A stretch of DNA of 64,000 bases. Source: an uncultured Flavobacteriaceae bacterium. Lineage in GTDB: Bacteria; Bacteroidota; Bacteroidia; Flavobacteriales; Flavobacteriaceae. How positions within the stretch are numbered: the stretch's first letter is position 1; every line of letters begins with the position of its first letter. The notes under the pieces were generated by a model. It searched no databases and was not told the DNA's origin. It was given only the letters and a program-made list of their open reading frames with translations. The stretch is from NCBI GenBank assembly GCA_947502975.1, contig CANNBV010000004.1:62001-126000 (forward strand), given 5' to 3'. Of this stretch, positions 1,881 to 18,845 are shown piece after piece. Both the position numbers and the translations under genes were made by a program.

Positions 1881-4229
1881 TTATCCTTTTATAATTGTTT
1901 CATCTAAATTGAAAATTAAACTCGTTAATACCGTGTAAGCGTGAGTTTCTTTATTTGGTATTTCTTTATTTTCTATATCGTCTTCAATAGGCTTATAACT
2001 ATCTTTTGCCGATTTTAGATATGCCAATAATTTGTTTGTTTCTTCTTCAGCTGGTAAACGCGTTGTTATTTTTCTAAAAATTGTTTCTACTCTATCCTTA
2101 TCTGATAAATTATCTTGATTTAAGATACGTTGTGCTAAATATTCTGCAGCTTCAATTAACTGCGGATCATTTAACATAGCTAGTGCTTGTAATGGCGTAC
2201 TGGTTTTTTGGCGTTTTACTTCGCAAAAATCTCTTGTTGGTGCATCAAATGTCATTAATGAAGGCGGTGGTACTGTACGTTTCCAAAACGTGTAAAGACT
2301 TCTTCTGTATTGTCCTTCTCCTACATCTGGAATGTATTTGGTTAAACCTTGTCCTGATGTAGTTTCAGCCCATAGCCCTGGTGGTTGATATGGTTTTACA
2401 CTTGGCCCACCAACTTTTTTAACTAGTAATCCGCTAACAGCAAGTGCATTATCTCTAATCATTTCAGCAGACAACTTACTTCGAGAGCTTCGTGCTAAAA
2501 GTTTATTATCTGGATCTAATTCTAATAATTCTGGTGTTACTTTAGACGTTTGTTGATAGGCACTGGACATCACCATACGCTTATACATTTTTTTCATATC
2601 CCATCCTTCTTCTCTAAAAGTAACTGCTAAATAATCTAATAAATTTGGATGACTTGGTAAATCACCTTGGTTTCCAAAATCGTCTGATGTTGCAACTATA
2701 CCAACTCCAAATATTTGTTGCCACATTCTATTAACTGCAACTCTAGAAACAAGCGGATTATCTTCATCAAAAAGCCATTTAGATAGCCCTAATCTGTTTT
2801 TAGGAAATGATTTTTTATAATCTAGAATAACTTCTGGTGTACCTGCTTCTACCTCATCTGTTGGGGCATCATATACACCTCTATTTAAAACATATGTTTT
2901 TCTATTTGCTGCACCATCTTTCATCACCATCGGGTAAACCTCTGAAATTGAATCAGGGAGGTTTATGAAAGACAACATTTCTTTTACCTCTTTGGGTGTT
3001 ATCTTAATATTTGGTTTTGGTATTTCATCATAATCTATACGACCTTTTTCATCTACCTTATTAAAAAACGAATAAAAGCTGTAGAATTCCTTCTGAGAAA
3101 TAGGATCGTATTTATGGTCGTGACAACGAGCACACTCCATGGTGAGACCCATAAGTGCTTTTGAGGTAGTATTTGCTCTATCCATTACATATTCAACACG
3201 GTATTCTTCATCTATTACGCCTCCTTCTTGTGTTATTTTATGATTCCTGTTAAAACCAGTTGCTAGAATTTGTTCTAAAGTAGCATTAGGCAATAAATCG
3301 CCTGCTAATTGCCATTCTACAAAATCATTGTATGGTAAGTTTCTATTAAAAGCACTTATCACCCAATCTCTCCAAGGCCACATTACACGTTCTAAATCGT
3401 CTTGATACCCATGTGTGTCTGCATATCTAGAAAGATCTAACCAACTAGATGCCATATGCTCACCATAGGCGGTAGATGCTAATAATTTATCCACTATCTT
3501 TTCGTAAGCATCTTTAGAATCATCATTCATAAAAGCATCTATCTGTGATAATGATGGGGGCAATCCTGTTAAATCAAAATATAATTTTCTAAGTAATTTC
3601 TCTTTACTTGCTTTTTCTGATGGTTGTAACCCTTCCTGTTCTAATCGTTTTAAAATAAAATGATCTACATCATTGCTAATCCATTCTATATTTGCAACTT
3701 TTGGCACTTGCTTTTTCTCTGGAGGTAAAAAAGCCCAATGTTCTTTCCAAACTGCTCCTTGCTCAATCCATTTGGTTAAAATTTGTTTTTCATAATCTGT
3801 TAAGCTTAAGTTTGATTCTAAAGGAGGCATCGTCTTTTCGGGTTCAGCTGCATTAATTCTGTGTACCATCTGACTCTTATTGACATCTCCAGGAACAATA
3901 GCGTACCTATCTAGATTTTCTCCAATAGCAGCAAAAGCACCTTCTTCAGTATCCAATCTTAAGCCTGCTTCCCTAGTACCTTCATCTGGTCCGTGACATA
4001 AAAAACAACGGTCAGACAAAATAGGTTTCACATGAAAAATAAAATCTACAGTGTCTGGTAACATCATTTTTCCTTCAACTGAAGCCAATTCTTTGGTTGT
4101 TTCATTATTTTTTTTATCAACTGAAACATAGTCATCATTTGAAGTTCTCAAACTATATTTTACTAATAACACTGCTATGAATGGTATGAGAAAATATAAG
4201 ATTAATGTTAATTTCTTTTTAGTTTTCAT
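1881..4229 (-). CDS. PSD1 and planctomycete cytochrome C domain protein (DUF1549/DUF1553)
   Basis: 782 residues with an N-terminal membrane anchor (about 8-25). A PSCyt1 domain follows with a CFLCH heme-binding motif near residue 75. A PSCyt2/DUF1549 domain (about 180-390) contains DRWLDLARY-type sequence (here WLDLSRYADTHGYQDD) and a second CxxCH in CARCHDHKYDP. The PSD1/DUF1553 domain (about 480-760) includes NRMWQQIFGVGIV. Planctomycete homologues are usually longer, often with a carbohydrate-binding insert between DUF1549 and DUF1553; here that linker is short. The protein is probably periplasmic or outer-leaflet anchored and carries c-type heme, which suggests an electron-transfer step in glycan processing. 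No reaction is established for the family. Confidence 0.88.
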   Translation of the reverse strand: MKTKKKLTLILYFLIPFIAVLLVKYSLRTSNDDYVSVDKKNNETTKELASVEGKMMLPDTVDFIFHVKPILSDRCFLCHGPDEGTREAGLRLDTEEGAFAAIGENLDRYAIVPGDVNKSQMVHRINAAEPEKTMPPLESNLSLTDYEKQILTKWIEQGAVWKEHWAFLPPEKKQVPKVANIEWISNDVDHFILKRLEQEGLQPSEKASKEKLLRKLYFDLTGLPPSLSQIDAFMNDDSKDAYEKIVDKLLASTAYGEHMASSWLDLSRYADTHGYQDDLERVMWPWRDWVISAFNRNLPYNDFVEWQLAGDLLPNATLEQILATGFNRNHKITQEGGVIDEEYRVEYVMDRANTTSKALMGLTMECARCHDHKYDPISQKEFYSFYSFFNKVDEKGRIDYDEIPKPNIKITPKEVKEMLSFINLPDSISEVYPMVMKDGAANRKTYVLNRGVYDAPTDEVEAGTPEVILDYKKSFPKNRLGLSKWLFDEDNPLVSRVAVNRMWQQIFGVGIVATSDDFGNQGDLPSHPNLLDYLAVTFREEGWDMKKMYKRMVMSSAYQQTSKVTPELLELDPDNKLLARSSRSKLSAEMIRDNALAVSGLLVKKVGGPSVKPYQPPGLWAETTSGQGLTKYIPDVGEGQYRRSLYTFWKRTVPPPSLMTFDAPTRDFCEVKRQKTSTPLQALAMLNDPQLIEAAEYLAQRILNQDNLSDKDRVETIFRKITTRLPAEEETNKLLAYLKSAKDSYKPIEDDIENKEIPNKETHAYTVLTSLIFNLDETIIKG

Positions 4230-4239: not shown

Positions 4240-5220
4240 TTAAAATATTACATGTACTGCTTCTAAGAGCTTGTTATCTTGATTTAAAGATTGTACGGCA
4301 TAATTAAAACCTGGTCGTAAACAATATGAGCCGTATTCTCCTTTTTTATTCAATGCAATAAAACCTACTTGTAGCCATTCTAAATCTGGCGTATTTTGGT
4401 AAACTTTATAAATTCGTTCTACAACTTCTTTACAAGCTTCAGATGGCGATTTCCCATAACGCATTAATTCTACCACCATGGCACTTCCTGCCGTTTTTAT
4501 TATAGCTTCTCCAAGGCCTGTTGCAGCAGCGGCTCCAACTTCATTATCCAAAAACAAACCTGCTCCTATAATTGGTGAGTCTCCAACACGACCATGCATT
4601 TTCCAAGCAGCACCACTAGTTGTACAAGCACCAGATAAATTTCCTTCTTCATCTAAAGCCAACATACTTATGGTATCATGGTTTTCTATATTTATTATTG
4701 GTTTGTATTCTGACTTTATTAACCAATCTTCATAAGCCTTCTTAGTTTTCTCAGTTAATAAGTTTTCTTTTTTAAAACCTTTCTCTAAAGCAAATTGTAG
4801 TGCTCCTTCACCAACTAACATGACATGCGGTGTTTCTTCCATAACTTTTCTTGCCACAGAAATAGGGTGTTTTATGTGCTGTAAAAATGCTACTGAGCCA
4901 CAATCGCTATTCTGATTCATGATACAAGCATCTAAGCTTACCTTTCCATCTCTGTCTGGAAAACCCCCTATACCCACTGTTTGTATATCTGGATTAGCTT
5001 CGGCTGTTCTCACACCTTGCTCCACGGCATCAAGAGCCTTCCCTCCATTACTTAAAATTTTCCAGGCTATTTTGTTAGCCTGCAAACCATGATTCCATGT
5101 AGAAATAACAACGGGTTTAATTGATTTTTCATCATAGTTTTCTTTTCTCTTTTTCTCGCAATTAAAGAGACATAAAAATATTAAAAAAAAGACTATCTTA
5201 TGTAAACATATCTTCTTCAT
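4240..5220 (-). CDS. N4-(beta-N-acetylglucosaminyl)-L-asparaginase (glycosylasparaginase, Ntn hydrolase), lipoprotein
   Basis: This enzyme hydrolyses the GlcNAc-Asn bond of N-linked glycans. The chosen start is the ATG at 5220, one base past the previous gene's stop, giving MKKICLHKIVFFLIFLCLFNC, a lipoprotein signal with its lipobox Cys. A longer reading to 5310 would overlap the GH92 gene. The motif HDTISMLALDE contains the Thr that becomes the N-terminal nucleophile after autocleavage, as in the Flavobacterium (Elizabethkingia) enzyme. The GRVGDSPIIGAGLFLD and GLGEAIIKTAGS segments form the substrate pocket. At 326 residues the length is normal. Isoaspartyl peptidase activity is the alternative, but the glycosidase neighbours favour glycosylasparaginase. 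Confidence 0.9.
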   Translation of the reverse strand: MKKICLHKIVFFLIFLCLFNCEKKRKENYDEKSIKPVVISTWNHGLQANKIAWKILSNGGKALDAVEQGVRTAEANPDIQTVGIGGFPDRDGKVSLDACIMNQNSDCGSVAFLQHIKHPISVARKVMEETPHVMLVGEGALQFALEKGFKKENLLTEKTKKAYEDWLIKSEYKPIINIENHDTISMLALDEEGNLSGACTTSGAAWKMHGRVGDSPIIGAGLFLDNEVGAAAATGLGEAIIKTAGSAMVVELMRYGKSPSEACKEVVERIYKVYQNTPDLEWLQVGFIALNKKGEYGSYCLRPGFNYAVQSLNQDNKLLEAVHVIF

Positions 5221-5221
5221 C

Positions 5222-7507
5222 TTATTGATTATCATTGAAATACACTTTATTAGGCTCTGGCAAAACTGCTTTGCCAAAAACTGAGTCATTAGGCTTTTTT
5301 GCCATAGCAAACTCTAAAACACCACCTTGAATTACTTCCTCATGGGTAATAAAAATTCTATTTAAAGGTTTACCGTTCAACATTATTTTTTCTACGTACT
5401 TATTTTCTTTTGAATGATTAGAAGCTAATATTTTAAAACTTTTATTGTCTGATAAAGCAATACTCGCTTCTTCAAATAATGGTGCTCCAAGGTGATAAAC
5501 GCCTTGTGCTGGGTTTACTGGATAAAATCCCATGGCACTGAGTACATACCATGACGACATTTGTCCGCAATCTTCATTTCCACAATGCCCGTTGGGTTCA
5601 TTTTTATATTGCTTTTCTAAAATTTGTCTTACTAATTTTTGTGTTTTGGATGGTTTATCAATATGGTTATATAAGTAAGCTACATGATGACTTGGTTCGT
5701 TACCGTGTGCATATTGCCCAATCATTCCCGTGCTAAACAGTGGCAACTTGTCTATAGGTTCTGGATAATAAGAAAACATAGAATCTAACTTTTGCTCAAA
5801 CCGTTCTTTTCCTCCTGTTTTATTAATCAGTTCATCTATATTCTGTGGTACAAACCAGTAATAATGCCATGCATTGCTTTCGCAGAAATAAGGTGAATAG
5901 GCTTTAGCTTCAAAATTTGGTAAAAAGCTATTTGTGCTATCTTTTGGTTGTATCCAAGATGATGTCTCGTTATACAAATTTTTCCAACTATTAGATCTTT
6001 CTATAAAATACTCAAAATCCTTTTCTCTCCCTAAATCTTTTGCGAACATGGCAATGCACCAATCATCGTATGCATATTCTAATGTTTTAGAAACTGACCA
6101 ATTCTCATGTCCTTCATGAACAGGCACATACCCTAATACTTTGTATGTATCAATATCTCTGTCATCAATCATAGCACTATTTTTACATGCTTCATAAGCT
6201 AAAAGTGCATCAAAATCTACCCCTTTAAAATAGGCATCTACAATAACTGGTACTGCATGGTAACCAATCATCATATTGGTTTCACTTCCTTGCATTGACC
6301 AAACTGGCAAAACACCTGTTTCTTTGTAATGTGCTAGTAGTGATTTTACCATATCAGAAGTTCGTTCTGGATGTATAATAGTAAACAGTGGATGCGCTGC
6401 TCTAAACGTATCCCATAATGAAAAGGTATCATATCTATCAAAACCTATTGCAGTTGCAATAGTGTCTTGTTCTTCTTTATAATTACCAGTTGCATCGTTT
6501 GCAGCTTTATAACTTCCATCTACATCACTTAATAATGTTGGTGCTAACATAGATTGATATAGCATAGTATAAAAGACTGTTTTTTCATCTTCATTGTTAG
6601 TTTTTATTTTTATTTTTTGAAGTTCTTTTTCCCAAACCAATGTTGCCTTTGCTTTATAGACATCAAAATTGAAATGATTTGCTTCTTTTCTTATAGCTTC
6701 ATTTGCCGCTTTACAACTAGTTGTTGACAAGCCTGTTTTTACAATTATTTTTTCGTCATCTTCAGTGCTATAATTCAATATCATTTTATGACTAATACCT
6801 CCAAAGGGTTTTGTGTCTTGGGTTTTATCATCTATAATTTTATAAGATTTGAAAGGTTTTGAAAAATGCATTTCAAAATACAATCGCTGGTTTCTTGCCC
6901 AACCAGTAGACATGCGGTGTCCTCTAATTACAGAATCGTTTACTTTTTCAATATGGGTATCAATTGGTTTATCCCAGTTTAAGGCATAGCCTAAATCAAT
7001 GTGTATTTTAGTGCTATCATCTTTAGGAAAGGTATATTGATGAATCCCTACACGCTTAGTTGCCGTTACTTCTGATTTAATACCATAGTCTAATAAATCT
7101 ACAGTATAATATCCTGGAGACGCCATTTCTTTATCATGAGAAAATGATGAAAACGGTTTAAAATTATTGTCTTTTATTTTTTTTGAAAACCTGTTGTTAG
7201 TTGGCATCACCAAAATATCGTACAAATCCCCAGCACCTGTACCTGAAAGATGTGTATGCGAAAAACCTGTAATAATAGAGTCTTGGTAATAATAACCAGC
7301 AATTCTATCCCATCCAGGAATACCTATATCTGGGCTTAACTGCACCATACCAAAAGGTACTGTAGCGCCTGGATATGTGTTTCCTGGGCCATCTGTACCA
7401 ATAAACGGATTTACAAATGCTGTTAAACTTGCATGTTCTTGCTCTTTTTTAGCACAACTTATGCTTAGCAATACGACAATAACATATATAAGTTTAAACC
7501 TCCCCAA
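5222..7507 (-). CDS. GH92 family exo-alpha-mannosidase, lipoprotein (first copy)
   Basis: 761 residues. The frame opens just after an in-frame TAG and has no nearby ATG, so the start is probably the TTG at 7507. This gives MGRFKLIYVIVVLLSISC, a complete lipoprotein signal. GH92 landmarks run the full length: VNPFIGTDGPGNTYPGATVP at the N-terminus, DRYDTFSLWDTFRAAHPL in the middle, AHGNEPSHHVAYLYNH, and GNEDCGQMSSWYVLSAMG. GH92 enzymes are calcium-dependent alpha-mannosidases that trim terminal alpha-1,2/1,3/1,6 mannose; linkage cannot be read from the sequence. It shares architecture with the copy at 12622-14835 but the two are clearly diverged, suggesting different linkages rather than a recent duplication. 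Confidence 0.95.
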   Translation of the reverse strand: MGRFKLIYVIVVLLSISCAKKEQEHASLTAFVNPFIGTDGPGNTYPGATVPFGMVQLSPDIGIPGWDRIAGYYYQDSIITGFSHTHLSGTGAGDLYDILVMPTNNRFSKKIKDNNFKPFSSFSHDKEMASPGYYTVDLLDYGIKSEVTATKRVGIHQYTFPKDDSTKIHIDLGYALNWDKPIDTHIEKVNDSVIRGHRMSTGWARNQRLYFEMHFSKPFKSYKIIDDKTQDTKPFGGISHKMILNYSTEDDEKIIVKTGLSTTSCKAANEAIRKEANHFNFDVYKAKATLVWEKELQKIKIKTNNEDEKTVFYTMLYQSMLAPTLLSDVDGSYKAANDATGNYKEEQDTIATAIGFDRYDTFSLWDTFRAAHPLFTIIHPERTSDMVKSLLAHYKETGVLPVWSMQGSETNMMIGYHAVPVIVDAYFKGVDFDALLAYEACKNSAMIDDRDIDTYKVLGYVPVHEGHENWSVSKTLEYAYDDWCIAMFAKDLGREKDFEYFIERSNSWKNLYNETSSWIQPKDSTNSFLPNFEAKAYSPYFCESNAWHYYWFVPQNIDELINKTGGKERFEQKLDSMFSYYPEPIDKLPLFSTGMIGQYAHGNEPSHHVAYLYNHIDKPSKTQKLVRQILEKQYKNEPNGHCGNEDCGQMSSWYVLSAMGFYPVNPAQGVYHLGAPLFEEASIALSDNKSFKILASNHSKENKYVEKIMLNGKPLNRIFITHEEVIQGGVLEFAMAKKPNDSVFGKAVLPEPNKVYFNDNQ

Positions 7508-7513
7508 AGTTTT

Positions 7514-8632
7514 CTATTTTAACTCTTCTTTTGTTTTTTTAATTACCTCTAAAAATTTATCTGTTAGTGCTCCACCGTCATAAAACGCCAACCCTTTTGC
7601 GCCATTATTCTTTGCTAGCAATATTGCTTCCCTAAGTACTTTTGGGCTTTCAAAATCTGGTATAAACACTCCAGTATTAATCTGTATGTTAGTGCTAGAC
7701 ACATCTTCTACGCCTTGTTTTGTAGCATAACCAATCCAATCTAGTTCTTCATTATAAAACCCATGATAAATCATAGGATACACTTCATCTATTGTCCATT
7801 TATCCCAACGCTGACGTACCATATGATCTGCCATTTCAGGATAAGGAAATACAGCCGCTGTTAACTTTTTATCATGCTTTTTAGCGATTTGATAAGCATC
7901 ATCAACTATTGCCTTTACTTTATTCAATCTGAAGTTTTTCCACTCCATATCTATTGCTGTATTTTTAATTTTTAGAGGGTTTTTATGATGTATTTTTTCA
8001 AAAGCAGTTATACAAGCATCACAATAACAGAAATCAAATTCGGGCAACTCTTCATCTTGAACTAAATTGTATTTTGGTAGTAAACCAATAGGCAAGAAAA
8101 CATCTGAAAACCTAATATAATCTAAGTGTACACTCTCTATTCCATCTACTTTTGCTAATCCTTCAACTAAATCCAAAATATGGTTTCTAGAAGCTTCTCT
8201 TGTTGGACACAACCATTGATAATACTCTACATATGGTCTGTTATCGTAACACGATTTTCCTTCTTTATTCACAGCATACCATTCAGGGTGTTGTAATGCT
8301 ACAGAATCTCCTGGGCGATTCATAGCCATAATCCACGCATGTACTTTAAGCTTGTTAGCTCTTGCTATAGGTACAATTCTATTTAGAAGAGCAGGTTCTG
8401 TGTTGGTATTTATTAAAACCTCATCTATTCCACCATTTTTATATTTTTTAAATTCTGCATCATAATCTTCATTAGATTTGTTTTTATCGGCAGTAATCCA
8501 AGTACCGAACTTAAAAACTGATGACAATTCTTTGTTTGAATTCTCTACTTGAACTCCATTAGCCTTGTCTTTTTCAATACAACCAACCAGAATAAAACAA
8601 ATAATACATGTAAAAATATTTTTCATCTTCAT
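7514..8632 (-). CDS. GHL10-type (family 10 glycosyl hydrolase-like) TIM-barrel lipoprotein
   Basis: The start is taken at the ATG at 8632 (or 8626), because an earlier in-frame codon at 8662 would run into the preceding gene. The N-terminus, MKMKNIFTCIICFILVGC, is a lipoprotein signal. The body resembles GHL10/DUF187-like barrels: KVHAWIMAMNRPGD, the Cys-containing WLCPTREASRN, and VHLDYIRFSDVF, where the Asp of LDYIRF sits on a barrel strand as in retaining glycosidase relatives. A CYCDAC cluster in the middle could be structural. In this operon it is likely to act on an N-glycan or mannan fragment at the cell surface, but the substrate is not established for the family. Confidence 0.78.
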   Translation of the reverse strand: MKMKNIFTCIICFILVGCIEKDKANGVQVENSNKELSSVFKFGTWITADKNKSNEDYDAEFKKYKNGGIDEVLINTNTEPALLNRIVPIARANKLKVHAWIMAMNRPGDSVALQHPEWYAVNKEGKSCYDNRPYVEYYQWLCPTREASRNHILDLVEGLAKVDGIESVHLDYIRFSDVFLPIGLLPKYNLVQDEELPEFDFCYCDACITAFEKIHHKNPLKIKNTAIDMEWKNFRLNKVKAIVDDAYQIAKKHDKKLTAAVFPYPEMADHMVRQRWDKWTIDEVYPMIYHGFYNEELDWIGYATKQGVEDVSSTNIQINTGVFIPDFESPKVLREAILLAKNNGAKGLAFYDGGALTDKFLEVIKKTKEELK

Positions 8633-8639
8633 TATTAAA

Positions 8640-9740
8640 TTACTTAGAAATGAGTTCTCCATCTTCCCTAATGGTTAATATTTTATTTGAAAAAGGGCTT
8701 TTAATTGAAATGTTCCAACCTGTACTATGATTTTCAAGTAATGGGTTAAGTTCCATGTTGTTCACCAATACTTTAACGTTTAAGTCTTTAATTGATTCAC
8801 TCCACTTATTATTTTTCTTGTAATATGCTTTTTGAGCATTATAAAGTTTAAATAAATTCCATTTGATTTTTTCATCTTTTGGAACTACAAAATCAGTTTT
8901 ATTTCCGTTTTTCGGAGAGAAATATACATAGCCCCAAGTTTCTGGTCGGTGCATATTAATTACGCCTTGAGGTGACCATACCCAATTGTATTCTCTGGCA
9001 ACTTTTCCATCCTGATCCTTCTTGCGTACATATCTTCCATCATCTAATTGAAAGTCCCACTGGACTCTTGAAAAATTAACACGCCAAAAACTGGTTGCTA
9101 AATTTGATTTTTCAAAATAGGATATCTTGAATACCTTTATTGGAATAGCTACTTCTATACTCCAGTTATTATCCTTGTCATTAGGATTGTTTAATGTGCC
9201 ATCTATATGAACTGCAGATTTTAATCCGTTGGCATCCCAATCATTTAAAACCGTAGTTTCTTCTCTGTAAGGCTTTGTGAGAAACAAGTCCCATAGCGTA
9301 TTTAAGGCATTAATTTCAAATTCATAATAATTATGGCCATCACCATCTGGGTCTATAAAAATTTCAAAATCGTTATTATGATATACAATGGTATCTTTTT
9401 GTTTAAGTGTTCCCCAAACATGCGGTTCTTGTAACTCAGCAAAGAAATAAACATATTGTTCATCCCATAGCATTTTAAATCTTGTATTGTATTTAGGCTT
9501 TTTGATGCCTTCTATATCTATAAATTCATCTGAATAGTCTGCTTTATGCCATACGTCTTCATTGGCCAAACCATCAATAGTAATAGTACCTTCAGCGTAA
9601 TGCGCTATGTATGCTTTGAGGGTAATTTCTACATTGGTATCTTGGGCAATAATAGTATCACAAGAAAAGATTGAAATAAAAACAATAAATAATGTATTTA
9701 TTATTTTAACCCAAATATATATGGTTTGAGAATATTTCAT
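8640..9740 (-). CDS. CBM9-like carbohydrate-binding protein, secreted
   Basis: The start is chosen at the ATG at 9740, which lies one base beyond the previous stop (9742). It gives a type I signal peptide ending around DTIIAQD. The N-terminal half of the mature protein is a CBM9-type beta-sandwich: ITIDGLANEDVWHKADYSDE, then MLWDEQYVYFFAELQEPHVW, and EIFIDPDGDGHNYYEFEINA with acidic residues typical of calcium binding. The C-terminal third has no domain I recognise. No catalytic motif was seen. It probably binds the glycan or glycopeptide handled by the neighbouring enzymes at the surface. About 366 residues is typical for Bacteroidota CBM9-only proteins. Confidence 0.85.
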   Translation of the reverse strand: MKYSQTIYIWVKIINTLFIVFISIFSCDTIIAQDTNVEITLKAYIAHYAEGTITIDGLANEDVWHKADYSDEFIDIEGIKKPKYNTRFKMLWDEQYVYFFAELQEPHVWGTLKQKDTIVYHNNDFEIFIDPDGDGHNYYEFEINALNTLWDLFLTKPYREETTVLNDWDANGLKSAVHIDGTLNNPNDKDNNWSIEVAIPIKVFKISYFEKSNLATSFWRVNFSRVQWDFQLDDGRYVRKKDQDGKVAREYNWVWSPQGVINMHRPETWGYVYFSPKNGNKTDFVVPKDEKIKWNLFKLYNAQKAYYKKNNKWSESIKDLNVKVLVNNMELNPLLENHSTGWNISIKSPFSNKILTIREDGELISK

Positions 9741-9741
9741 T

Positions 9742-10707
9742 CTATAACGAATTGTTCTTTGTAAATGCAATAACCTCACTTATTCTACTAAATGCTAAGG
9801 CTACAACAGTATCTGCTGCTCCGTAATACACAGCTAATTTATCTTCTTCTATATCGTGTAATGCAGCACAAGGAAACACTACATTAGACACATCTCCTAT
9901 TTGCTCATAATTTACTTGCGGGGTTAACAAATATGATTGAGTTCTGTATTTTACCTTATCCGGTTGATTTTTATCTAAAATAGCTGCACCCATAGCATAT
10001 CTAAAACCGTTGCAAGTATTAATTACACCATGGTATATCATAAGCCAACCTTCATCAGTAAGGATCGGTATTGGTCCTGCTCCTATTTTTGTGCATTGCC
10101 ACGCACTATCTTCAAAAGCTGTGGCTTTCATCACACAACGGTGTTCTCCCCAATATTTCATATCTGGACTATAGCTTATATAAATATCACCAAACGGCGT
10201 ATGTCCATTATCACTCGGTCGACTTAACATAGCGTATTTACCATTAATCTTTTTTGGAAATAATACACCATTTCTATTGAATGGTAGAAATGCATTTTCA
10301 CACTGAAAAAATTCCTTAAAATCATAGGTATAAGCTATTCCTATAGTTGGCCCATGATAGCCGTTGCACCAAGTCACCCAATAGCGGTCTTCTATAAATA
10401 CAACTCTGGGATCGTATTTATAATCAGAATCAATCATATCAGTATTTCCAGTCTTCATTACAATAGGGCTATCTTCGATATTCCAGTCTATAGCATTTTC
10501 GCTAAAACCCACATGAATATTCATTTGTACCGCTTTATTATCGCACCTAAAAACGCCAGCATACCCATTTTTATAAGGTACTACTGCACTATTAAAAATA
10601 CTATTAGATGAAGGTATTTGATTTCTACCTATAATAGGGTTTTCAGAATATCTCCACATGATATCTTTACAATCAGCTGGTTTATTTTGCCAAGGAATTT
10701 GTTTCAC
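9742..10707 (-). CDS. GH130 beta-1,4-mannosyl-N-acetylglucosamine phosphorylase
   Basis: 321 residues with no signal peptide, so cytoplasmic. The start codon is a GTG at 10707. The sequence follows the GH130 subfamily that includes the gut Bacteroidetes enzymes acting on the Man-beta-1,4-GlcNAc core of N-glycans: [60 protein letters not shown] and [13 protein letters not shown]. The expected reaction is phosphorolysis of Man-beta-1,4-GlcNAc to mannose 1-phosphate and GlcNAc. It lies between the symporter gene (32 bases upstream) and the CBM9 gene, matching import followed by intracellular cleavage. Other GH130 enzymes cleave mannobiose or mannosyl-glucose, but the operon context favours the N-glycan substrate. 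Confidence 0.9.
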
Positions 10708-10739: not shown

Positions 10740-12617
10740 CTAATTTGGAAGTTTTTTAACTTTATCTAACCAAGTATATTTCAAAATTATTGATGTTATT
10801 AAAAATACAACTAAAGCTATCAATGCTTTAGGATAATCTCTAATCACAAAATATATGGATAAAACAATCATACTAGATTGCCATATAATACCAATAACAC
10901 AGTTTAACATGTCTTTCCAGAAATCGGTGTTTTTTGTTATGGTTACATCCTCTTCTTGCAATTTCCTGTATACTGGTTTCCACCAACCCCAAGGCCTTAC
11001 ATCTTTATAAAAGGATTTTAACACATCTATATGAGTTGGTTTGGTCAAGCATGTTCCTAAGAAAGACCCTAAAAGCGAGAATAAAAATATAATTGGAAAT
11101 AAGTATATGGCATGTAAATTTGCTAATTCACAAAGTATTGTCCCTTCTGAAAAAGTACCTTTATTTTGATCTAAAACAAATTGTAGAGATGCAATGATTA
11201 AGCCAGCTAACATGCCCCAAAAGTAACCCCAACCATTAAAGCGCCACCAAATCCATTTTAAAAAATTAGCAGCCACATAACCCCCAAACAGGGCACTGGT
11301 AATCCACAATGTTAATGAATTTATAGAGTTTGTAAAAAATCCCATAGTGACACCTAAACCTACTAATAAGAATGATGAAATATGACTGGCTTTTATATAA
11401 TGCTTGGGTGTTGCCTCTGGTTTAAAATACTTTTTGTAGATATCATTAACAATATATGCTGGTCCTGCATTTACAAATGCTGAAAATGTAGACATAAAAG
11501 CAGCTAATAAACCTGCTAACAATAAGCCTTTAATACCTACAGGTATCTGAAAATTAATAACTTTTGGAAGGAGCACTTCCAAATCGCCTCCATTTAACAG
11601 AGGGTTACCATTCATTTCTGGACTTAATGTTATCAAAGCTATTACTACAATTGCCGTAATTAACAGGTATCTGGGTATAAATAAAATAAGGTTGGTAAAC
11701 CCACTCATGTACGCTGCTTCTTTAACTGTTTTTGTAGAAAGAATACGTTGCATATCAAATCCTGGTGTAGGGCCAGCTATACTTGCAAAGAACCCTTTAA
11801 AGAGTGTCATTCCTATAAAAGCACCAAACATTTTATAACCCTCAGAATCTACTAAATTGTTAAAAGCCTGATACTTTTCTCCCCAATGTGTTTCTAATTC
11901 CCAACCAAAAAACACATTCTTCCATTCTTCTGTAATTACGCTAGCTATTTCAACATCACTTATAGAGAAAAACACATAAGCCACAACTAAAACACCAGCA
12001 ATTACCATAATAATATATTGCAAAACTTCAGTTGCTACTACAGAGAACATTCCTCCTTTTATAGTATAAATAGTTGTTAATATTATAATTATTAAAGCAT
12101 ACGATTGTTCAGAAGTAAGTAGTATGTGACTCCCTAGAACACATTCTAAATCCCAGGGTAAAATAACCGTTAAAAATTTACCAACGCCTTCAAAAAAATA
12201 AGCAATAAAACCTATTGAAGATACGATGGCGAAAATAGCAACGATTATATGAGATGCCCTTCCTGATTTATCGTTGCCAAAACGGGTTAAAATCCACTCA
12301 GAACCTGTCATAATATTAGAGCGTCTTATCCAAACAGCTAAAAACATCATTACAAAAACCTGATTCCAAACAGGCCACAACCACATGAACATAAAGCTTT
12401 TAACTCCATAAAGAAAAAGTATGCCAACCATCCATGCAGTTCCAGAAATATCAAACATTCCTGAACCATTGCTAAGCCCTAAGAAATACCATTTAATATT
12501 ATTACCACCTAAGAAATATGACTTTAACCCTTTTGAGGCTTTTTTTGAGACTACTATCCCAACTGCCAAGGTTAATACGATATAAATGGCGATAATTGAT
12601 ACATCAATAACATCCAT
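10740..12617 (-). CDS. Sodium/solute symporter (SSS family)
   Basis: 625 residues, about 14 membrane spans and no cleavable signal. Recognisable SSS features are the N-terminal YFLGGNNIKWYFLGLSNGSG (gate region after the first span), the TIKGGMFSVVATEVLQYIIM span, and GLLLAGLLAAFMSTFSAFVN, a strongly conserved SSS helix that carries sodium-site residues. It is placed directly after the second GH92 gene (4-base gap) and before the GH130 phosphorylase, so the imported solute is probably mannose or a Man-GlcNAc-type disaccharide. The C-terminal 150 residues extend beyond the core fold, as in SGLT-like members. The family is certain and the substrate inferred. Confidence 0.92.
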   Translation of the reverse strand: MDVIDVSIIAIYIVLTLAVGIVVSKKASKGLKSYFLGGNNIKWYFLGLSNGSGMFDISGTAWMVGILFLYGVKSFMFMWLWPVWNQVFVMMFLAVWIRRSNIMTGSEWILTRFGNDKSGRASHIIVAIFAIVSSIGFIAYFFEGVGKFLTVILPWDLECVLGSHILLTSEQSYALIIIILTTIYTIKGGMFSVVATEVLQYIIMVIAGVLVVAYVFFSISDVEIASVITEEWKNVFFGWELETHWGEKYQAFNNLVDSEGYKMFGAFIGMTLFKGFFASIAGPTPGFDMQRILSTKTVKEAAYMSGFTNLILFIPRYLLITAIVVIALITLSPEMNGNPLLNGGDLEVLLPKVINFQIPVGIKGLLLAGLLAAFMSTFSAFVNAGPAYIVNDIYKKYFKPEATPKHYIKASHISSFLLVGLGVTMGFFTNSINSLTLWITSALFGGYVAANFLKWIWWRFNGWGYFWGMLAGLIIASLQFVLDQNKGTFSEGTILCELANLHAIYLFPIIFLFSLLGSFLGTCLTKPTHIDVLKSFYKDVRPWGWWKPVYRKLQEEDVTITKNTDFWKDMLNCVIGIIWQSSMIVLSIYFVIRDYPKALIALVVFLITSIILKYTWLDKVKKLPN

Positions 12618-12621: not shown

Positions 12622-14835
12622 TTACTGCTTTATTTTATTTAAACCCCAATTTTTGTTTGGCTCTGCACCCATGATAAAATGCAATTCACCTCCTTCAAGT
12701 ATTGTGTTATGAGAAATTGATGTTTGATTAAATTCGCTGTTATTTAATGTTGCAGATTGTATATAAATGTTATCTTTTGAAACATTTTCTGCAGTAATTG
12801 AAAAATACTTATCCTCACTGTTAGGTACTTTTATGGTCACTCTTTCAAATAGTGGAGAACCTATCTCATAATCTGTAGAGGCAGGGTTTAAAGGATATAA
12901 GCCCATAGAGCTTAAGACATACCAAGCAGACATTTGTCCACAATCTTCATTTCCACTTAAGCCATTTGGCGTTGTATTGTATTGCGTATCCATTATGTAC
13001 CTAGACCAGTATTGTGTGCGCCATGGTTTATTTGCATGGTTAAACATATATGCAATGTGATGACTAGGCTCATTACCATGCGCATATTGACCGATTAAGC
13101 CAGATATATCTACGGATACATTGTCTCCAGTAATTTCAGAACTTTCGGTAAATAACTGTTCTAAACGACTGGTAAAAACCGCATCACCACCATGAAGTTC
13201 TACTAATCTATTTACGTCATGAGGCACATACCAGCTATGCTGCCAGGCATTTCCTTCAGTATAATCGGTTTGTTCTCTATGGTTGGAATGTTTAGGGTCA
13301 AAAGGTTCATTCCATGATGCATTATCTTGAGAACGCCCTCTCATGAATCCTGATCCTTTATCGAATAGATGTTGATAGGCTTTAGATCGTTTCAAAAAGA
13401 AATTATAATCATCTTCTTTACCTAAAGCTTGTGCCATTTGCGCTACACACCAATCGTCGTAAGCATATTCTAAAGTAATAGTAACAGATTCGTCTAAAAG
13501 ATTATAAGGAATGTATCCATTTGTTTTGTAGAAATTTAACCCCCTATCATCATTCATCATAGTGGTTTTCATTGCCTCATACATACCTTCAGCATCAAAA
13601 TTTGTAATACCTTTTAAATAGGCTTCAACTATGACAGGAATAGAATGATAACCTGTCATAGTATTAGTTTCATTAGCATATAAGGTCCAAACTGGCAGTA
13701 CATTTTTACCTTTATAATATTCGTGCATAGAATTTATGATGTCTGAAACCTTATCTGGAGCTATTAAAGTGAGTAGCGGATGTTCTGCCCTAAATGTGTC
13801 CCAAAGCGATAGTGTAGAGTATGCCGTGTAATTTTCAGCAGTAACTATGCTATCATTTTCTTTTCTAAATTGTCCATTCTTATCGCTAAACGTAACTGGA
13901 GCCAATTGCGAATGATATAATGCTGTATAAAATATGGTTTTTAGAGAATCTTCAGAAGTTTCAATTTCTATTTTAGATAGTTTTTCATTCCATGTGTTTT
14001 CTGCTTCGGTTTTTACCACATCAAACTCTTTTTCTAATTCCAAGTTTTCTTTTGCATTTTCAACACTAACAGAAGATAATGCTACTTTAACAAACAATGG
14101 TTTATCACTATTATCAATAAAAAAGATTTGGCAAGCGCTTTTATTAGTATTTAATTGATGCTCTGATATTGGTTCAGAAAATTTAGCAACAAAAAATACT
14201 TTCTGGTTTTTTGCCCAACCTGTTGAATGGCGATATCCACTTATAGTATTAGGGCTTTCAAGTTTTAAATGTGTCTCTAAAGGTTTATCCCAATTAATGG
14301 CAAAACCTAAATCTATCACAACAGATTTATCATCATTCTCTTTGAATGTATATTTATGAAATGCTGTCCTTTTTGTAGTTGTGAGTTCTACATTGATATT
14401 GTAATCCTGAAGAAATAATTGATAATATCCGGGTGAAGCTTGTTCGTTTTCGTGTGAATATGAGGATTTGTAAGGTAAACTATCTCTAGATTTTGGTGTT
14501 TTACTTAAATCCACCTTTTTATTTACAGGCATCATGATAATATCTGCTAAATCGCCAATACCTGTACCACTTAAACTTAAATGAGAAAACCCTATTACTA
14601 TAGAATCTGAATAATGATACCCAGAACACCAATCCCATTTAGATATGCCATTTATTGGGCTTACTTGCAACATTCCAAAAGGAACCGTAGCTCCAGGATA
14701 TGTATGTCCGTGGCCTCCTGTTCCAATAAAAGGATCAACATATTCAGTTAAAAGTTTCTTTTCAGAATTTGACTGCTTTGGTTCACAACCAATAATTATA
14801 ACACCACATAATAAAAAAAAGTAAAAGTTCTTCAT
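12622..14835 (-). CDS. GH92 family exo-alpha-mannosidase, lipoprotein (second copy, operon head)
   Basis: The start is taken at the ATG at 14835, giving MKNFYFFLLCGVIIIGC with a lipobox; an in-frame ATG seven codons earlier exists but dilutes the signal. GH92 motifs are complete: VDPFIGTGGHGHTYPGATVP, YSTLSLWDTFRAEHPL, AHGNEPSHHIAYMFNH and GNEDCGQMSAWYVLSSMG. It is the first gene of the ten-gene operon and faces the lytS-type kinase gene across a 119-base divergent region that holds the motif at 14898-14911 and a TAAATTTA box. It probably trims alpha-mannose from high-mannose N-glycans at the surface or in the periplasm. Linkage is not predictable here. Confidence 0.95.
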   Translation of the reverse strand: MKNFYFFLLCGVIIIGCEPKQSNSEKKLLTEYVDPFIGTGGHGHTYPGATVPFGMLQVSPINGISKWDWCSGYHYSDSIVIGFSHLSLSGTGIGDLADIIMMPVNKKVDLSKTPKSRDSLPYKSSYSHENEQASPGYYQLFLQDYNINVELTTTKRTAFHKYTFKENDDKSVVIDLGFAINWDKPLETHLKLESPNTISGYRHSTGWAKNQKVFFVAKFSEPISEHQLNTNKSACQIFFIDNSDKPLFVKVALSSVSVENAKENLELEKEFDVVKTEAENTWNEKLSKIEIETSEDSLKTIFYTALYHSQLAPVTFSDKNGQFRKENDSIVTAENYTAYSTLSLWDTFRAEHPLLTLIAPDKVSDIINSMHEYYKGKNVLPVWTLYANETNTMTGYHSIPVIVEAYLKGITNFDAEGMYEAMKTTMMNDDRGLNFYKTNGYIPYNLLDESVTITLEYAYDDWCVAQMAQALGKEDDYNFFLKRSKAYQHLFDKGSGFMRGRSQDNASWNEPFDPKHSNHREQTDYTEGNAWQHSWYVPHDVNRLVELHGGDAVFTSRLEQLFTESSEITGDNVSVDISGLIGQYAHGNEPSHHIAYMFNHANKPWRTQYWSRYIMDTQYNTTPNGLSGNEDCGQMSAWYVLSSMGLYPLNPASTDYEIGSPLFERVTIKVPNSEDKYFSITAENVSKDNIYIQSATLNNSEFNQTSISHNTILEGGELHFIMGAEPNKNWGLNKIKQ

Positions 14836-14868
14836 AAACAGCAAATTAAGCATCAATATAAAAATTCA

Positions 14869-14876
14869 TAAATTTA
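14869..14876 (-). promoter_or_regulatory. Candidate -7 box of the GH92 operon promoter
   Basis: TAAATTTA, one base off the Bacteroidota -7 consensus TAnnTTTG, lies 33 bases before the GH92 start codon. No well-placed TTG -33 element is present, as expected of an activator-dependent promoter. The same box occurs 29 bases before nagB. AT-rich sequence makes chance matches easy. Confidence 0.35.
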
Positions 14877-14897
14877 GTCGGTTAAAAAAGAAATTTA

Positions 14898-14911
14898 GAC
14901 AGACAACATCT
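14898..14911. promoter_or_regulatory. Candidate operator GACAGACAACATCT between GH92 operon and lytS-type gene
   Basis: The 14-base word differs at a single position from GACAGACGACATCT at 18718-18731 upstream of nagB. Both copies are upstream of minus-strand genes in the same orientation. This one is 62 bases before the GH92 start codon and 43 bases before the kinase ATG, so it could serve both divergent genes. It is the only strong non-coding match I found between the two loci. Binding by the adjacent LytTR regulator is inferred. Confidence 0.5.
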
Positions 14912-14954
14912 ATTGCAAGCTAAACGCCAAAAAAAATGTAACTATTTAATCCAA

Positions 14955-16034
14955 ATGAAATTTTATCCAAAGAACTTTCATAGCATATCTATAAAATACC
15001 ACATAATATTTTGGGTGGTCTATTTTTTACTAAATGTTTTTAGATGGGGAAGTTATTTTACCGGAATATTAGAGCAACCCTATGTATATTCCTTTAAAAC
15101 AAATTTATTGGGATTCCCCATTCATATGATATTATGCTACCTAAATATTTATATTTTAATGCCAAAGTTGGCTTTTAAGAAAAAGTATATTTTTTATGTT
15201 CTTTTAATGATATCGTCTATTTTTTTGATGGTTCTCATTAAGTTTAACCTTACATATTTATTAGTTAGCACAAATGTATGGCCTGAAGGTCCAGAAATAA
15301 TAAATAGTTTAACGCTTAACTATACTATTGATATGATGATAGGCGAGCTTTATGTTATAACTTTTGTTACTGCTATTAAAACCACACTAGATTTTTTGAA
15401 AGAGCATAAACGTGTAACAGACCTTGAAAAAGCGCAATTAGAGACAGAATTATTGTTTTTAAAAACTCAAGTTTCGCCACATTTCTTTTTTAATACATTA
15501 AATAATATTTATTCTCTAGCCGTTGAAAAATCTAATAAAACTCCTAAAATAATTTTAAAACTTTCTGAGTTGATGAGATATCTTCTCTATGACACGAAGC
15601 ATAAACGGCAAACTTTAGAAAACGAAATACTGTGCATACAGAACTACCTCGACTTAGAAAAAGTAAGACATGGTGAATCTTTAGAAATAAACATGTCCAT
15701 TACTGGAGATATTCACGATAAAAAAATAGCTCCAATATTATTGCTATCATTCGTAGAAAATGCATTTAAGCATGGTGCTAAAAAAAATATTGGAAACGTT
15801 AAAATTGATATTAGTTTTACTATTGAAAACGATTTTCTTTACTTTACAATCTCTAACCCTATGCCGGCAGAAACTTACTACAGAGAGACCATTAAGACGT
15901 CTAAAGGTATAGGTATAGAAAATGTAAAAAAACGATTATCATTAGGCTACGATGAAAATGATTATGAATTAAATATTAAAAATGATAATAATTTATTCAT
16001 AGTAGATCTAAAAATTAAAGTGTCATGGAAGTAA
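14955..16034 (+). CDS. LytS/YehU-type sensor histidine kinase (His_kinase family), four-span membrane sensor
   Basis: The start is the ATG at 14955 (MKFYPKNFHS); a TTG 42 bases earlier would add a charged leader of no obvious value. Four hydrophobic spans fill roughly residues 15-140, a short coiled-coil linker follows (KRVTDLEKAQLETELLFLK), then the His_kinase motif QVSPHFFFNTLNNIYSLA with the phospho-accepting His. The C-terminal HATPase has SFVENAFKHGAKK (N box) and SKGIGIENVKKRL (G box). No extracellular domain is present, so sensing would be through the membrane spans. It overlaps the regulator gene by 10 bases and diverges from the glycan operon, which it most likely controls. Confidence 0.92.
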   Translation: MKFYPKNFHSISIKYHIIFWVVYFLLNVFRWGSYFTGILEQPYVYSFKTNLLGFPIHMILCYLNIYILMPKLAFKKKYIFYVLLMISSIFLMVLIKFNLTYLLVSTNVWPEGPEIINSLTLNYTIDMMIGELYVITFVTAIKTTLDFLKEHKRVTDLEKAQLETELLFLKTQVSPHFFFNTLNNIYSLAVEKSNKTPKIILKLSELMRYLLYDTKHKRQTLENEILCIQNYLDLEKVRHGESLEINMSITGDIHDKKIAPILLLSFVENAFKHGAKKNIGNVKIDISFTIENDFLYFTISNPMPAETYYRETIKTSKGIGIENVKKRLSLGYDENDYELNIKNDNNLFIVDLKIKVSWK

Positions 16035-16732
16035 AGTGCTTAATAATAGATGATGAACCTCTAGCTATTAATGTTATTAGCAACTATTTACAAAAAATTG
16101 AAGATTACCAACTAGTTGATACATTTAATAATGCTATCGATGCGCTTAATTTTTTAAAGAATAATGCGGTTGATGTCATTTTTCTTGATATAAATATGCC
16201 AATACTAGATGGTATAAGTTTTATAAAAAGTTTAGAGAAACCTCCGTTGCTAATTATCACTAGTGCTTACCACGAATATGCAGTTGAAACTTATGAATTA
16301 GATGTTTTAGATTATTTAGTAAAACCTATTGAATTTCCTAGATTTATGAAAGCTTTGGGTAAAGTAAATAGAAGAATGAACATCAATAAATCTTCTGAAA
16401 CTATCAATAAAGAGCGGCCTTATCTTTTTATTAAAATTGATAAAAAGAAGATGAAAAAAATCTTTTTAGATGAAATTCTCGTTGTAGAGTCTTTAAAAGA
16501 TTATTTAAGAATAAATACCACGACAGGTAAATATATTATACATAGTACCCTCACAGATTTTACTGAATTATTGCCATCTAGAAATTTTATTCGTATCCAC
16601 AGATCATATACCATTGCTATAGACAAAATTGATGCTGTAGAAGGCAACAGCGTTGAAATAGAAGGCCTTAGGTATGTTATTGGAAGATCCTATGTAGAAG
16701 AGGTAAAGAAGAAGATATTAAATACGGCTTAA
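16025..16732 (+). CDS. LytTR-family response regulator
   Basis: 235 residues. The receiver domain (about 1-120) has the acidic pair in LIIDDEP, the phospho-accepting Asp55 in VIFLDINMP and the conserved Lys in YLVKPIEFP. The LytTR DNA-binding domain (about 135-235) has FIRIHRSYTIAIDKIDAVEG. It is translationally coupled to the kinase and converges on nagB with a 6-base gap. LytTR regulators bind direct repeats upstream of their targets. The shared 14-base word at 14898 and 18718 is the obvious candidate, making this the probable local regulator of the mannosidase operon and nagB. Confidence 0.93.
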   Translation: MEVKCLIIDDEPLAINVISNYLQKIEDYQLVDTFNNAIDALNFLKNNAVDVIFLDINMPILDGISFIKSLEKPPLLIITSAYHEYAVETYELDVLDYLVKPIEFPRFMKALGKVNRRMNINKSSETINKERPYLFIKIDKKKMKKIFLDEILVVESLKDYLRINTTTGKYIIHSTLTDFTELLPSRNFIRIHRSYTIAIDKIDAVEGNSVEIEGLRYVIGRSYVEEVKKKILNTA

Positions 16733-16738
16733 GTCTGG

Positions 16739-18649
16739 CTAAAATATATACTTTTTAAAAGCTTCAATAGCTTCATATTCAGCCAAACCTAAATTGTTAT
16801 ATTTTTTTGCTGTATATCTATTTCTATCCTCAGCTCTTACCCAAAACTCTCTATTATCGTTACCCTGAAACATAACATCATCTTTTTGAGATTGGTGATA
16901 AAAAATAGCATGGCGTTTTTTCATCACCTGACTCGGGCTTAAGGGTATAGCCATATCTATTTCATAAGTTTCCCATTCATGCCATGCCCCTCTATACAAC
17001 CAAACCCAGCAATCATCCATATAATCTTTAGTTTTTAGCATTTCTAAAGCTTCAAACAAAACATCTAAGCAAACTTTATGTGTACCATGAGGATCAGCCA
17101 AATCTCCTGCAGCATATATTTGATGTGGTTTTACAGCTTCAATTATACTACACATTATATCTAAATCATCTTTACTTAGCTTATTTTTTTTAATGGTACC
17201 TGTTTCATAAAATGGTAAATCTAAAAAGTGAATATTACAGTCTCTAACTCCTAAATATCTTGTTGCAGCATAAGATTCACTCCTACGTATCAAGCCTTTT
17301 AATTTTCTCACTTCACTTGAATCTCTTTCACTTTCAGTTTTTTGTTTAATGTAATTTATAATACTATCAGATTCATGATTCGGATTAATGGCTTTTGACA
17401 CTTCTGCAAACTTTAAAACCTCTGCATCAGAAACCGCAATATTCCCTGAGGTTTGGTAGGCAATATGTACTTCATTACCTTGCTCTACTAACCTATCTAC
17501 CGTACCTCCCATAGAAATAACATCATCATCAGGATGTGGACTAAATATAAGTACTCTCTTTATTTGGGGAAGAGAACGTTCAGGACGGTTGGCATCATCT
17601 GCATTTGGTTTTCCTCCTGGCCATCCAGTAATGGTATGTTGCAACTTATTAAACATTTTAATATTCAAATCGTATGCCGAGCCTTCATTAGCTAATAAGC
17701 CAGACATTCCATTATCATTATAATCTTTATCTATTAATTTTAAAATGGGTTTATTAGTTTTTTCAGATAGCCAAACTACTGCCTTGAGTTTTAGTTTCTC
17801 TCTCCAATGACAAGCTTTTACTAACCAAGGTGTTTTTACTCTTGTTAATTCTAAAGCAGCACTATTATCTATAACAAAAGTTGTGTTATTATGGTTTTGC
17901 AAATACGTAGCCGGTACTTCTGGGGTTATCTCTCCCTCTATCGTATTTTTTATGATTTCTGCTTTGTTATTTCCCCATGCTAAAAGCACAATTCGTTTTG
18001 CGCTCATAACAGTACCTATACCCATAGTAATGGCCTTTCTTGGTACGTTTTCAATACCTAAAAATGCTGGTGCAGCATCTACTCTTGTAATATGGTCTAG
18101 CGTTATACTTCTGGTGCCAGAGTTGTGATGAGATCCTGGTTCATTAAAACCAATATGTCCCGTTCTACCTATACCTAGTAACTGAAAGTCCAAGCCCCCA
18201 AATTCCTTTATTTTCATTTCATAGTCTACACAATATTGATGCAAATCTTTAACATCTATTTTTCCATCTGGTATGTGTATATTTTCAGGTAAGATATCAA
18301 TATGATTAAACAAATGGTCATGCATAAAATGATGATAACTTTGAATATTACTTTTATCCATTGGATAATACTCGTCCAAATTAAACGTAATCACATTATT
18401 AAAACTTAACCCTTCTTCTTTATGAATTCGAACTAATTCTTCATAAACCCTTATTGGTGAGGAACCTGTAGCAAGTCCCAAAACACACAATTCATCTTCA
18501 ATATCCTTTTTTATTATTAAATCTGCTATTTCGCGTGCTACCAAAATAGAGGCTTCATCAGAAGAGTTAAAAATTACGTTATGAATTTTTTCAAAACGGG
18601 TTTCTTCAAATTTACCAGCTTTGTTGTAAGATATGGTTTCTGTATACAT
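16739..18649 (-). CDS. nagB: Glucosamine-6-phosphate deaminase fused to a PIG-L/LmbE deacetylase-like domain
   Basis: 636 residues. Residues 20-270 are NagB: LGLATGSSP (58-65), NLDEYYPMD (90-98) with the enolisation Asp, and GIGRTGHIGFNEPGS (159-173) with His165 and Glu170. The position equivalent to Asp141 of the E. coli enzyme is Thr163. Residues 360-600 are a PIG-L/LmbE domain with the zinc motif HPDDD (372-376) and DPHGTH (519-524). NagB converts glucosamine 6-phosphate to fructose 6-phosphate and ammonia. The second domain suggests deacetylation of a GlcNAc derivative, which would supply the first domain. The fusion is common in Bacteroidota, but coupled activity is an inference. The upstream motif ties it to the N-glycan operon. 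Confidence 0.92.
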   Translation of the reverse strand: MYTETISYNKAGKFEETRFEKIHNVIFNSSDEASILVAREIADLIIKKDIEDELCVLGLATGSSPIRVYEELVRIHKEEGLSFNNVITFNLDEYYPMDKSNIQSYHHFMHDHLFNHIDILPENIHIPDGKIDVKDLHQYCVDYEMKIKEFGGLDFQLLGIGRTGHIGFNEPGSHHNSGTRSITLDHITRVDAAPAFLGIENVPRKAITMGIGTVMSAKRIVLLAWGNNKAEIIKNTIEGEITPEVPATYLQNHNNTTFVIDNSAALELTRVKTPWLVKACHWREKLKLKAVVWLSEKTNKPILKLIDKDYNDNGMSGLLANEGSAYDLNIKMFNKLQHTITGWPGGKPNADDANRPERSLPQIKRVLIFSPHPDDDVISMGGTVDRLVEQGNEVHIAYQTSGNIAVSDAEVLKFAEVSKAINPNHESDSIINYIKQKTESERDSSEVRKLKGLIRRSESYAATRYLGVRDCNIHFLDLPFYETGTIKKNKLSKDDLDIMCSIIEAVKPHQIYAAGDLADPHGTHKVCLDVLFEALEMLKTKDYMDDCWVWLYRGAWHEWETYEIDMAIPLSPSQVMKKRHAIFYHQSQKDDVMFQGNDNREFWVRAEDRNRYTAKKYNNLGLAEYEAIEAFKKYIF

Positions 18650-18678
18650 AACAATGATTTGTTAATTTTGAATGATAA

Positions 18679-18686
18679 TAAATTTA
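18679..18686 (-). promoter_or_regulatory. Candidate -7 box of nagB
   Basis: TAAATTTA, 29 bases before the nagB start codon and 31 bases from the motif at 18718. It is the same word found at 14869-14876 before the GH92 operon, where the spacing to the motif is 21 bases. Confidence 0.3.
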
Positions 18687-18717
18687 AAACTCAGAATATT
18701 TTTATAAATATTATTTC

Positions 18718-18731
18718 GACAGACGACATCT
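18718..18731. promoter_or_regulatory. Candidate operator GACAGACGACATCT upstream of nagB
   Basis: Second copy of the word seen at 14898-14911, with one mismatch (G for A at position 8), 68 bases before the nagB start codon and in the same orientation relative to the regulated gene. The rest of the 226-base gap 18650-18875 holds only the candidate -7 box, AT-rich sequence and the tRNA terminator. Confidence 0.5.
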
Positions 18732-18845
18732 CTTATCCTCTGAAAACTTCTAAATTATGTTTTTATGAATTATATAATGATAATCTTAGTAAGTTGTGAT
18801 TTACAAATCAACTGATCAAACAGGTATAACAAAGGAATAAAAAAA

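Follow-up and report, generated by a model that had tools for sequence, protein, structure and literature searches.

The question raised by a 64,000-nucleotide stretch of an uncultured Flavobacteriaceae genome (GenBank assembly GCA_947502975.1, contig CANNBV010000004.1, positions 62,001 to 126,000; the whole stretch is called the window here) is whether a 14-base sequence shared by two of its promoters serves the regulator encoded between them. One copy precedes an operon headed by a GH92 alpha-mannosidase gene (GH92a), the other precedes nagB, and the genes of a LytS-type histidine kinase and a LytTR response regulator lie between the two units. An earlier note on this DNA had proposed the sequence as a candidate operator of the neighboring LytTR system. 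Comparison with relatives supports this proposal and corrects the length of the site, which is about 35 bp and not 14. We consider it very probable that the site serves this LytS/LytTR two-component system as its DNA operator, with predicted binding and control of an N-glycan utilization regulon. The finding is larger than the earlier note stated, namely a predicted conserved regulon with a defined operator.

The two 14-mers, GACAGACAACATCT at 14898-14911 and GACAGACGACATCT at 18718-18731, are both on the plus strand, 62 and 68 bases from the ATGs of GH92a and nagB, and the first is 43 bases from the ATG of the kinase gene; on all these points the earlier note was exact. The 4,545,432-base genome contains no further perfect copy. 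When up to three mismatches were allowed, the window contained six matches against 5.6 expected, and with up to two mismatches the whole genome contained 28 against 53 for a reversed control. The mismatch-tolerant 14-mer was dropped as a search pattern because controls do equally well or better, which makes the 14-mer alone a weak pattern and means that proof has to come from relatives. Relatives conserve TTAGAC at the left and GCTAAACRYCA at the right, and by this alignment the 14-mers are the core of a longer gapless site of approximately 35 bp, TTMGACNRRYRAC-N11-GCTAAACRYCA. The putative full operator between GH92a (minus strand) and the kinase gene (plus strand) occupies 14895..14929 (no strand assigned) and reads TTAGACAGACAACATCTATTGCAAGCTAAACGCCA; the one before nagB occupies 18715..18749 (no strand assigned), reads TTCGACAGACGACATCTCTTATCCTCTGAAAACTT, and has a weaker right half and a matrix score of 20.3.

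A search for the LytTR regulator covered 299 genomes of the family, 16 of which carry orthologs of 67-80% identity; from the best matches, 40 surrounding loci of about 20 kb each were taken. Kinase and regulator genes are present in all 40, as expected from selection by the regulator, and in 28 of them GH92a is divergent and within about 0.5 kb of the kinase gene; in L074, L075, L083, and L087 a symporter gene takes that place. An aligned, gapless 35-bp site was found upstream of the kinase gene in 36 of the 40 relatives, with TTAGAC invariant in every one (36/36). Model R2 (described below) includes 14 sites of other kinds, 13 of them with TTCGAC or ATCGAC. With matrices from which a locus's own and similar sites had been left out, 38 of 41 loci (the window and L086 included) outscored the best of 1,230 dinucleotide shuffles. 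In a set of 80 named loci (Flavobacterium, Gelidibacter, Maribacter, Tenacibaculum, Sinomicrobium, and others), which overlaps the first set in that at least nine are contigs already among the 40, the site was present in 73, within 2.6 kb before the regulator gene. Among these loci is L226 of Flavobacterium johnsoniae strain CI04, which has both the regulator ortholog and the site. It was not found in those 2.6 kb in seven (L220, L248, L291, and L296-L299), and the regulators of L296-L299 are among the most distant (51-54% identity).

A separate arrangement was seen in L058 (genome G173, with the regulator oriented on the plus strand), in which two genes of 471 and 475 amino acids, judged sulfatase-like by eye, separate GH92a from the kinase gene. 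Identical 35-bp operator copies lie at 4386 and 7817 of that locus, one on each side, as if both divergent units need one.

Two models were searched against genomes: R1, built from the sites of the 36 relatives and containing nothing from the window's genome, and R2, built from 29 relatives' sites with the TTCGAC type included. In the window's own genome R1 recovered the window site (E=1.5e-5) and a site at C4:53767 (E=0.026), and R2 recovered C4:53763 (E=1.2e-5), the window site (E=0.0026), and C4:42897 (E=0.017). The site at C4:53763 precedes a SusC-like gene that is followed by SusD-like, LamG, and FG-GAP genes, and that at C4:42897 precedes a permease above the cut-off of TIGR00885 (fucP; 509.5 vs. 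280.4 bits). With the nagB site included, this genome thus has four sites in about 38 kb, in a single orientation. Genes encoding SusC-like, SusD-like, and two GH92 proteins lie together at C4:49025-58441, on the strand and contig of the window operon, as in an N-glycan polysaccharide utilization locus. Between the FucP gene and the SusD-side genes, at 42897-46975 of the same contig (19 kb left of the window), a 1341-amino-acid protein of the FG-GAP/ASPIC type is also encoded; it has a helical domain resembling VCPO and a tail for type IX secretion.

Targets were examined for 41 of the 107 R2 matches in the genomes whose regulator is at least 67% identical, including all 30 matches at E<=0.06 outside the kinase/GH92 sites; the weaker rows, picked mainly for lying on the regulator's contig, are left out of the target counts, and one of them (L175) is inside a gene. 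Twenty of the 30 strong matches precede genes for SusC-like proteins (seven; Pfam on one, the others by N-terminal sequence), nagB (seven), GH92 (one), GH29-like proteins (two; Pfam on one), or FucP, a symporter, and a ROK protein (one each). One more precedes a LamG protein gene and three precede alpha/beta-hydrolases of about 857 amino acids (Pfam on one). These hydrolases, in L141, L150, and L162 (genomes G228, G269, and G162), show weak Prolyl oligopeptidase/esterase matches. Six of the 30 are training sites of R2 (five nagB and one GH29), and none lies inside an open reading frame of at least 150 amino acids. In the genomes with a regulator of 54-61% identity, 30 of 60 matches were examined, comprising 15 kinase-side sites, 12 before SusC-like genes, one before nagB, and two others. 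The earlier note had counted many copies at unrelated genes or in coding regions, and absence of the motif from orthologous loci, as arguments against an operator. Neither was seen: perfect copies number two, matches of a full-length model lie mostly before glycan-use genes, and the site recurs at the orthologous loci described above.

The site also co-occurs with the regulator gene. Where the regulator is at least 67% identical, 16 of 17 genomes (the window's own included) gave an R2 match at E<=0.1, and so did 23 of 24 with a relative of 54-61% identity. R2 training sites came from 23 of these 41 genomes, and among the 18 outside the training set 16 gave a match. None of the 21 genomes without a regulator ortholog did so at this threshold; the best E-value was 0.126 among 20 of them (14 without a regulator match at 1e-40 and six with distant LytTR paralogs only) and 0.30 in G132, which is of the same genus. 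Promoters of nagB separate the two groups more sharply. Scores of at least 20 were found in seven of eight nagB promoters of the first regulator-bearing set, six of those seven being in the training set, and scores of at least 14 in 47 of 51 named regulator-bearing loci with nagB, of which at least L228 is on the same contig as a training locus. The four misses among the named loci are L251 and L275, which are paralogs of about 58% identity, and L297 and L298. A nagB match was present in 11 of 28 regulator-lacking genomes, and the 400 bp upstream of these 11 genes reached no more than 0.5 in the expected orientation and 5.3 in either; nine of the 11 are just 58-65% identical to the nagB of the window.

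The distance between the site and the predicted promoter is also conserved in most of the regulon. The -7 box of F. psychrophilum is given as TAnnTTTG at -12 to -5 (PMC9723704). Similar boxes, TAAATTTA, were identified by the earlier note before GH92a (14869-14876, minus strand; 21 bases from the 14-mer and 18 bp from the TTAGAC of the operator) and before nagB (18679..18686, minus strand; 31 bases from the 14-mer and 28 bp from the operator). Exact TAnnTTTR boxes around 214 distinct sites, many of them from close relatives, fall at 28 bp in 81 cases, at 29 bp in 27, at 18 bp in 21, and at 2 bp in 26, the last of which are read as the flank of the site itself. After reduction to 108 non-redundant sites, 25 boxes remain at 28, 18 at 29, and six at 18 bp, against a background of 0.33 per distance. 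The TTCGAC class carries this peak, with an exact box at 28 or 29 bp in 41 of 73 non-redundant sites. With predicted boxes at 28-29 bp, the site is just upstream of the distal element of the promoter, as in LytTR operators. The position of the site upstream of the promoter box at GH92a and nagB is also the reason why a reading as an RNA leader was set aside.

The earlier note had taken the different box distances at GH92a and nagB as one helical turn. The positions and the distances of 21 and 31 bases stand; the one-turn difference is in doubt, because GH92a has a second, conserved near-match, AATTTTTA (14859..14866, minus strand), at 28 bp as at nagB. Among 37 kinase/GH92 sites, a 5-of-6 match to TAnnTTTR occurs at 28 bp in 30 (the first T being mostly A) and at 18 bp in 13, and [TA]AnnTTTA stands at exactly 28 bp in all four promoters of the window's genome. 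A common spacing of about 28 bp is likely, though less firmly so at GH92a, and the one-turn difference may be an accident of this genome. It keeps some ground, since among the 34 non-redundant sites of the TTAGAC (kinase/GH92) class exact boxes occur at 18 bp in four and at 28 bp in two.

Read on the gene strand, the site is approximately TGRYGTTTAGCTT-N7-ATGTTRTTGGTCTAA. Comparison of the matrix with itself peaks at offset 21 in the kinase-side, the other, and the pooled site sets, a value reached at that offset by one of 400 column permutations. Repeats 18 or 25 bp apart, suggested by GTT/GTC elements seen by eye, were rejected in view of this peak. The best reading is a putative LytTR operator whose direct repeat is imperfect and has a pitch of 21 bp. 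LytTR sites are described as repeats of 9-11 nucleotides with spacers of 11-13 nucleotides (PMC4847170), or as repeats separated in most cases by 12 bp and lying immediately before -35 (PMC6193735). Motifs of hybrid two-component systems (HTCS) are direct repeats too, on average 21 bp apart (PMC3878776), so a pitch of this size is not specific to LytTR.

The sequences show that the site exists, is conserved, precedes these genes, accompanies the regulator gene, and has a preferred distance from the box; on this we base the following mechanism. In its phosphorylated form the regulator would occupy, in head-to-tail arrangement, two imperfect repeats of about 9 bp, 21 bp apart (GTTTAGCT ... RTTNGTCT on the gene strand), and from its place upstream of the -33 region would activate transcription from the -7 box, usually 28-29 bp downstream. 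The GH92/GH130/symporter operon, nagB, the SusC/SusD unit, and the FucP-like permease would be switched on in this way, and the shared divergent site may also activate the kinase-regulator operon. We infer the binding of the regulator to the site, its activating effect, N-glycan breakdown products as the signal, and autoregulation, the last perhaps, from position only. By family knowledge and gene content, GH92, GH130, glycosylasparaginase, SusC/D, FucP, and nagB fit the uptake and breakdown of N-glycans to mannose, N-acetylglucosamine, and probably fucose.

Several results weigh against the reading of the site as a LytTR operator and as the mark of a regulon. Among the 40 relatives, L051, L078, and L081 have no site upstream of the kinase gene, and the site of L086 is 487 bases away. 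The nagB site of the window's own genome is missing from the R2 matches in that genome at E<=1, genomes G013 and G286 contain the regulator and gave no R2 match at E<=0.1, and six of the 30 strong matches (L149, L151, L157, L160, L164, and L166) lack a sensible target. Genomes that lack the regulator are in many cases smaller and belong for the most part to other genera, so that relatedness confounds the co-occurrence. The repeat is faint: when offset 21 is judged as the best of all offsets, 17%, 2%, and 6% of column permutations do as well in the three site sets, and the LytTR consensus is matched by the distal repeat at 5.8 of 8 positions on average and by the proximal repeat at 4.3 of 8, no better than at other offsets.

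Given that binding by this regulator is predicted only, and that the site also precedes nagB and SusC genes distant from the regulator gene, a real operator might belong to another transcription factor, encoded elsewhere, which controls the same glycan genes together with the kinase-regulator operon. The kinase-regulator pair is at the site in all 40 loci; such synteny is by itself no proof against another factor because the loci were selected by the regulator. Genomes without the regulator also lack the site, and we hold this explanation to be quite improbable. A second alternative keeps the LytTR regulator and reverses its effect: it would keep its targets repressed until removed by a signal, or would repress its own operon and activate the structural genes. 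A bound protein could block a kinase promoter, since in the window the 35-mer lies 25 bases from the kinase start; no kinase promoter was identified. At nagB, SusC, and FucP, however, about 28 bases separate the -7-like box from the end of the site upstream of it, and LytTR activators are reported to bind on that side; we regard repression as unlikely. That the 14-mer is shared by chance, or that it marks a functionless duplicated promoter, would agree with mismatch-tolerant matches that do not exceed controls, and is contradicted by conservation over genera, co-occurrence with the regulator, coherence of the targets, and box spacing, so that hardly any credence is left to it.

The preferred reading, an activating operator of the neighboring LytS/LytTR pair, agrees with the genes of the window. 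The kinase gene (14955..16034, plus strand; PF06580 83.6 bits, PF14501 24.2 bits) overlaps at 16025-16034 with the gene of the response regulator, the proposed operator binder (16025..16732, plus strand; PF00072 74.7 bits, PF04397 65.3 bits). As is expected of a LytS/LytTR system, the regulator has receiver and LytTR domains and adjoins a kinase of the PF06580 (His_kinase) type. The N-terminal part of the kinase is hydrophobic and contains a short conserved stretch, VWPEGP, for which a sensing role is a guess. Among 41 aligned kinases P110 is invariant, E111 occurs in 40, V108 in 39, W109 and G112 in 35, and P113 in 34, and exact WPEGPE occurs in 21. GH92a (12622..14835, minus strand; PF07971 582 bits) is the first gene of its operon and is accompanied on the same strand by genes encoding a sodium:solute symporter (10740..12617; PF00474), a member of the GH130 mannoside phosphorylase family with an uncertain start codon (9742..10707; PF04041, with every NCBIfam model below its cut-off), and, at 4240..9779 by Pfam, CBM9-like, DUF4015-like, GH92b, and glycosylasparaginase (Asparaginase_2) proteins. 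The product of nagB (16739..18649, minus strand) is a glucosamine-6-phosphate deaminase fused to a PIG-L domain (PF01182, PF02585; NF002557 1052 bits vs. a cut-off of 384). After the N-glycan genes and on the same strand, DUF1501 and PSCyt1/PSCyt2/PSD1 (planctomycete-cytochrome type) genes are located at 419-4229 of the window, and a TTCGAC site was noted before a PSD1-type gene in L067 and L087.

Among the papers listed by the literature searches, which mostly left subscription papers outside, none was seen to describe this operator or a LytTR glycan regulon in Bacteroidota. LytTR domains are tabulated as commoner in Flavobacteriaceae than in the Cyanobacteria and Proteobacteria compared (PMC7440613), and PMC11278836 lists LytTR and GH92 genes. 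For F. johnsoniae, a coevolution study tabulates five evolved isolates, each with a mutation in either FJOH_RS09515 (LytTR) or FJOH_RS09520 (kinase) (PMC10197871); this pair could not be mapped to the present system.

Known LytS/LytTR systems, such as YpdAB and BtsSR of E. coli and the LytTR regulatory systems of S. mutans, share with the present one a kinase and a LytTR regulator, and the repeats and spacers described for LytTR sites would match a 21-bp pitch (PMC4847170, PMC6193735). The operator sequence is different here, as are the glycan targets, and the regulator scores far below the corresponding NCBIfam cut-offs (BtsR 116.6 vs. 246; LytR 106.7 vs. 375). The HTCS_Man regulons of Bacteroides thetaiotaomicron likewise contain alpha-mannan/N-glycan genes with SusC/SusD and mannosidases (PMC3878776). 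An HTCS, however, joins a large periplasmic sensor, a kinase, and an AraC-type output in a single hybrid protein, whereas the pair in the window consists of separate kinase and regulator genes with LytTR output. It is possible, although we lean slightly against it, that Bacteroidota have a family-wide, as yet undescribed class of LytS/LytTR glycan regulators doing an HTCS-like job, in which a kinase without a large periplasmic sensor and with the VWPEGP stretch would sense N-glycan breakdown products and control a dispersed regulon (SusC/D, GH92, GH29, FucP, ROK, and nagB) via one operator of about 35 bp with fixed promoter spacing. The defined operator, the promoter spacing, and the coherent set of targets open N-glycan use in these bacteria to direct tests, and targets of other LytTR pairs could be assigned in the same way.

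In Roseburia intestinalis (Firmicutes), the Ros-7 locus has a LytTR response regulator and a kinase beside arabinoxylan genes; it differs in phylum, substrate, and the presence of further regulators, and no operator is given in the portion of the text covered (PMC5320581). The nearest functional parallel is TCS07 of Streptococcus pneumoniae, in which a two-component system activates N-glycan genes including GH92, GH29, and ROK and is clustered with them in other species (PMC7075642). It works with an ABC transporter instead of SusC/SusD, and its authors report neither a consensus DNA motif nor induction of the system's own kinase (PMC7075642). The kind of switch is known, and this particular circuit looks new.

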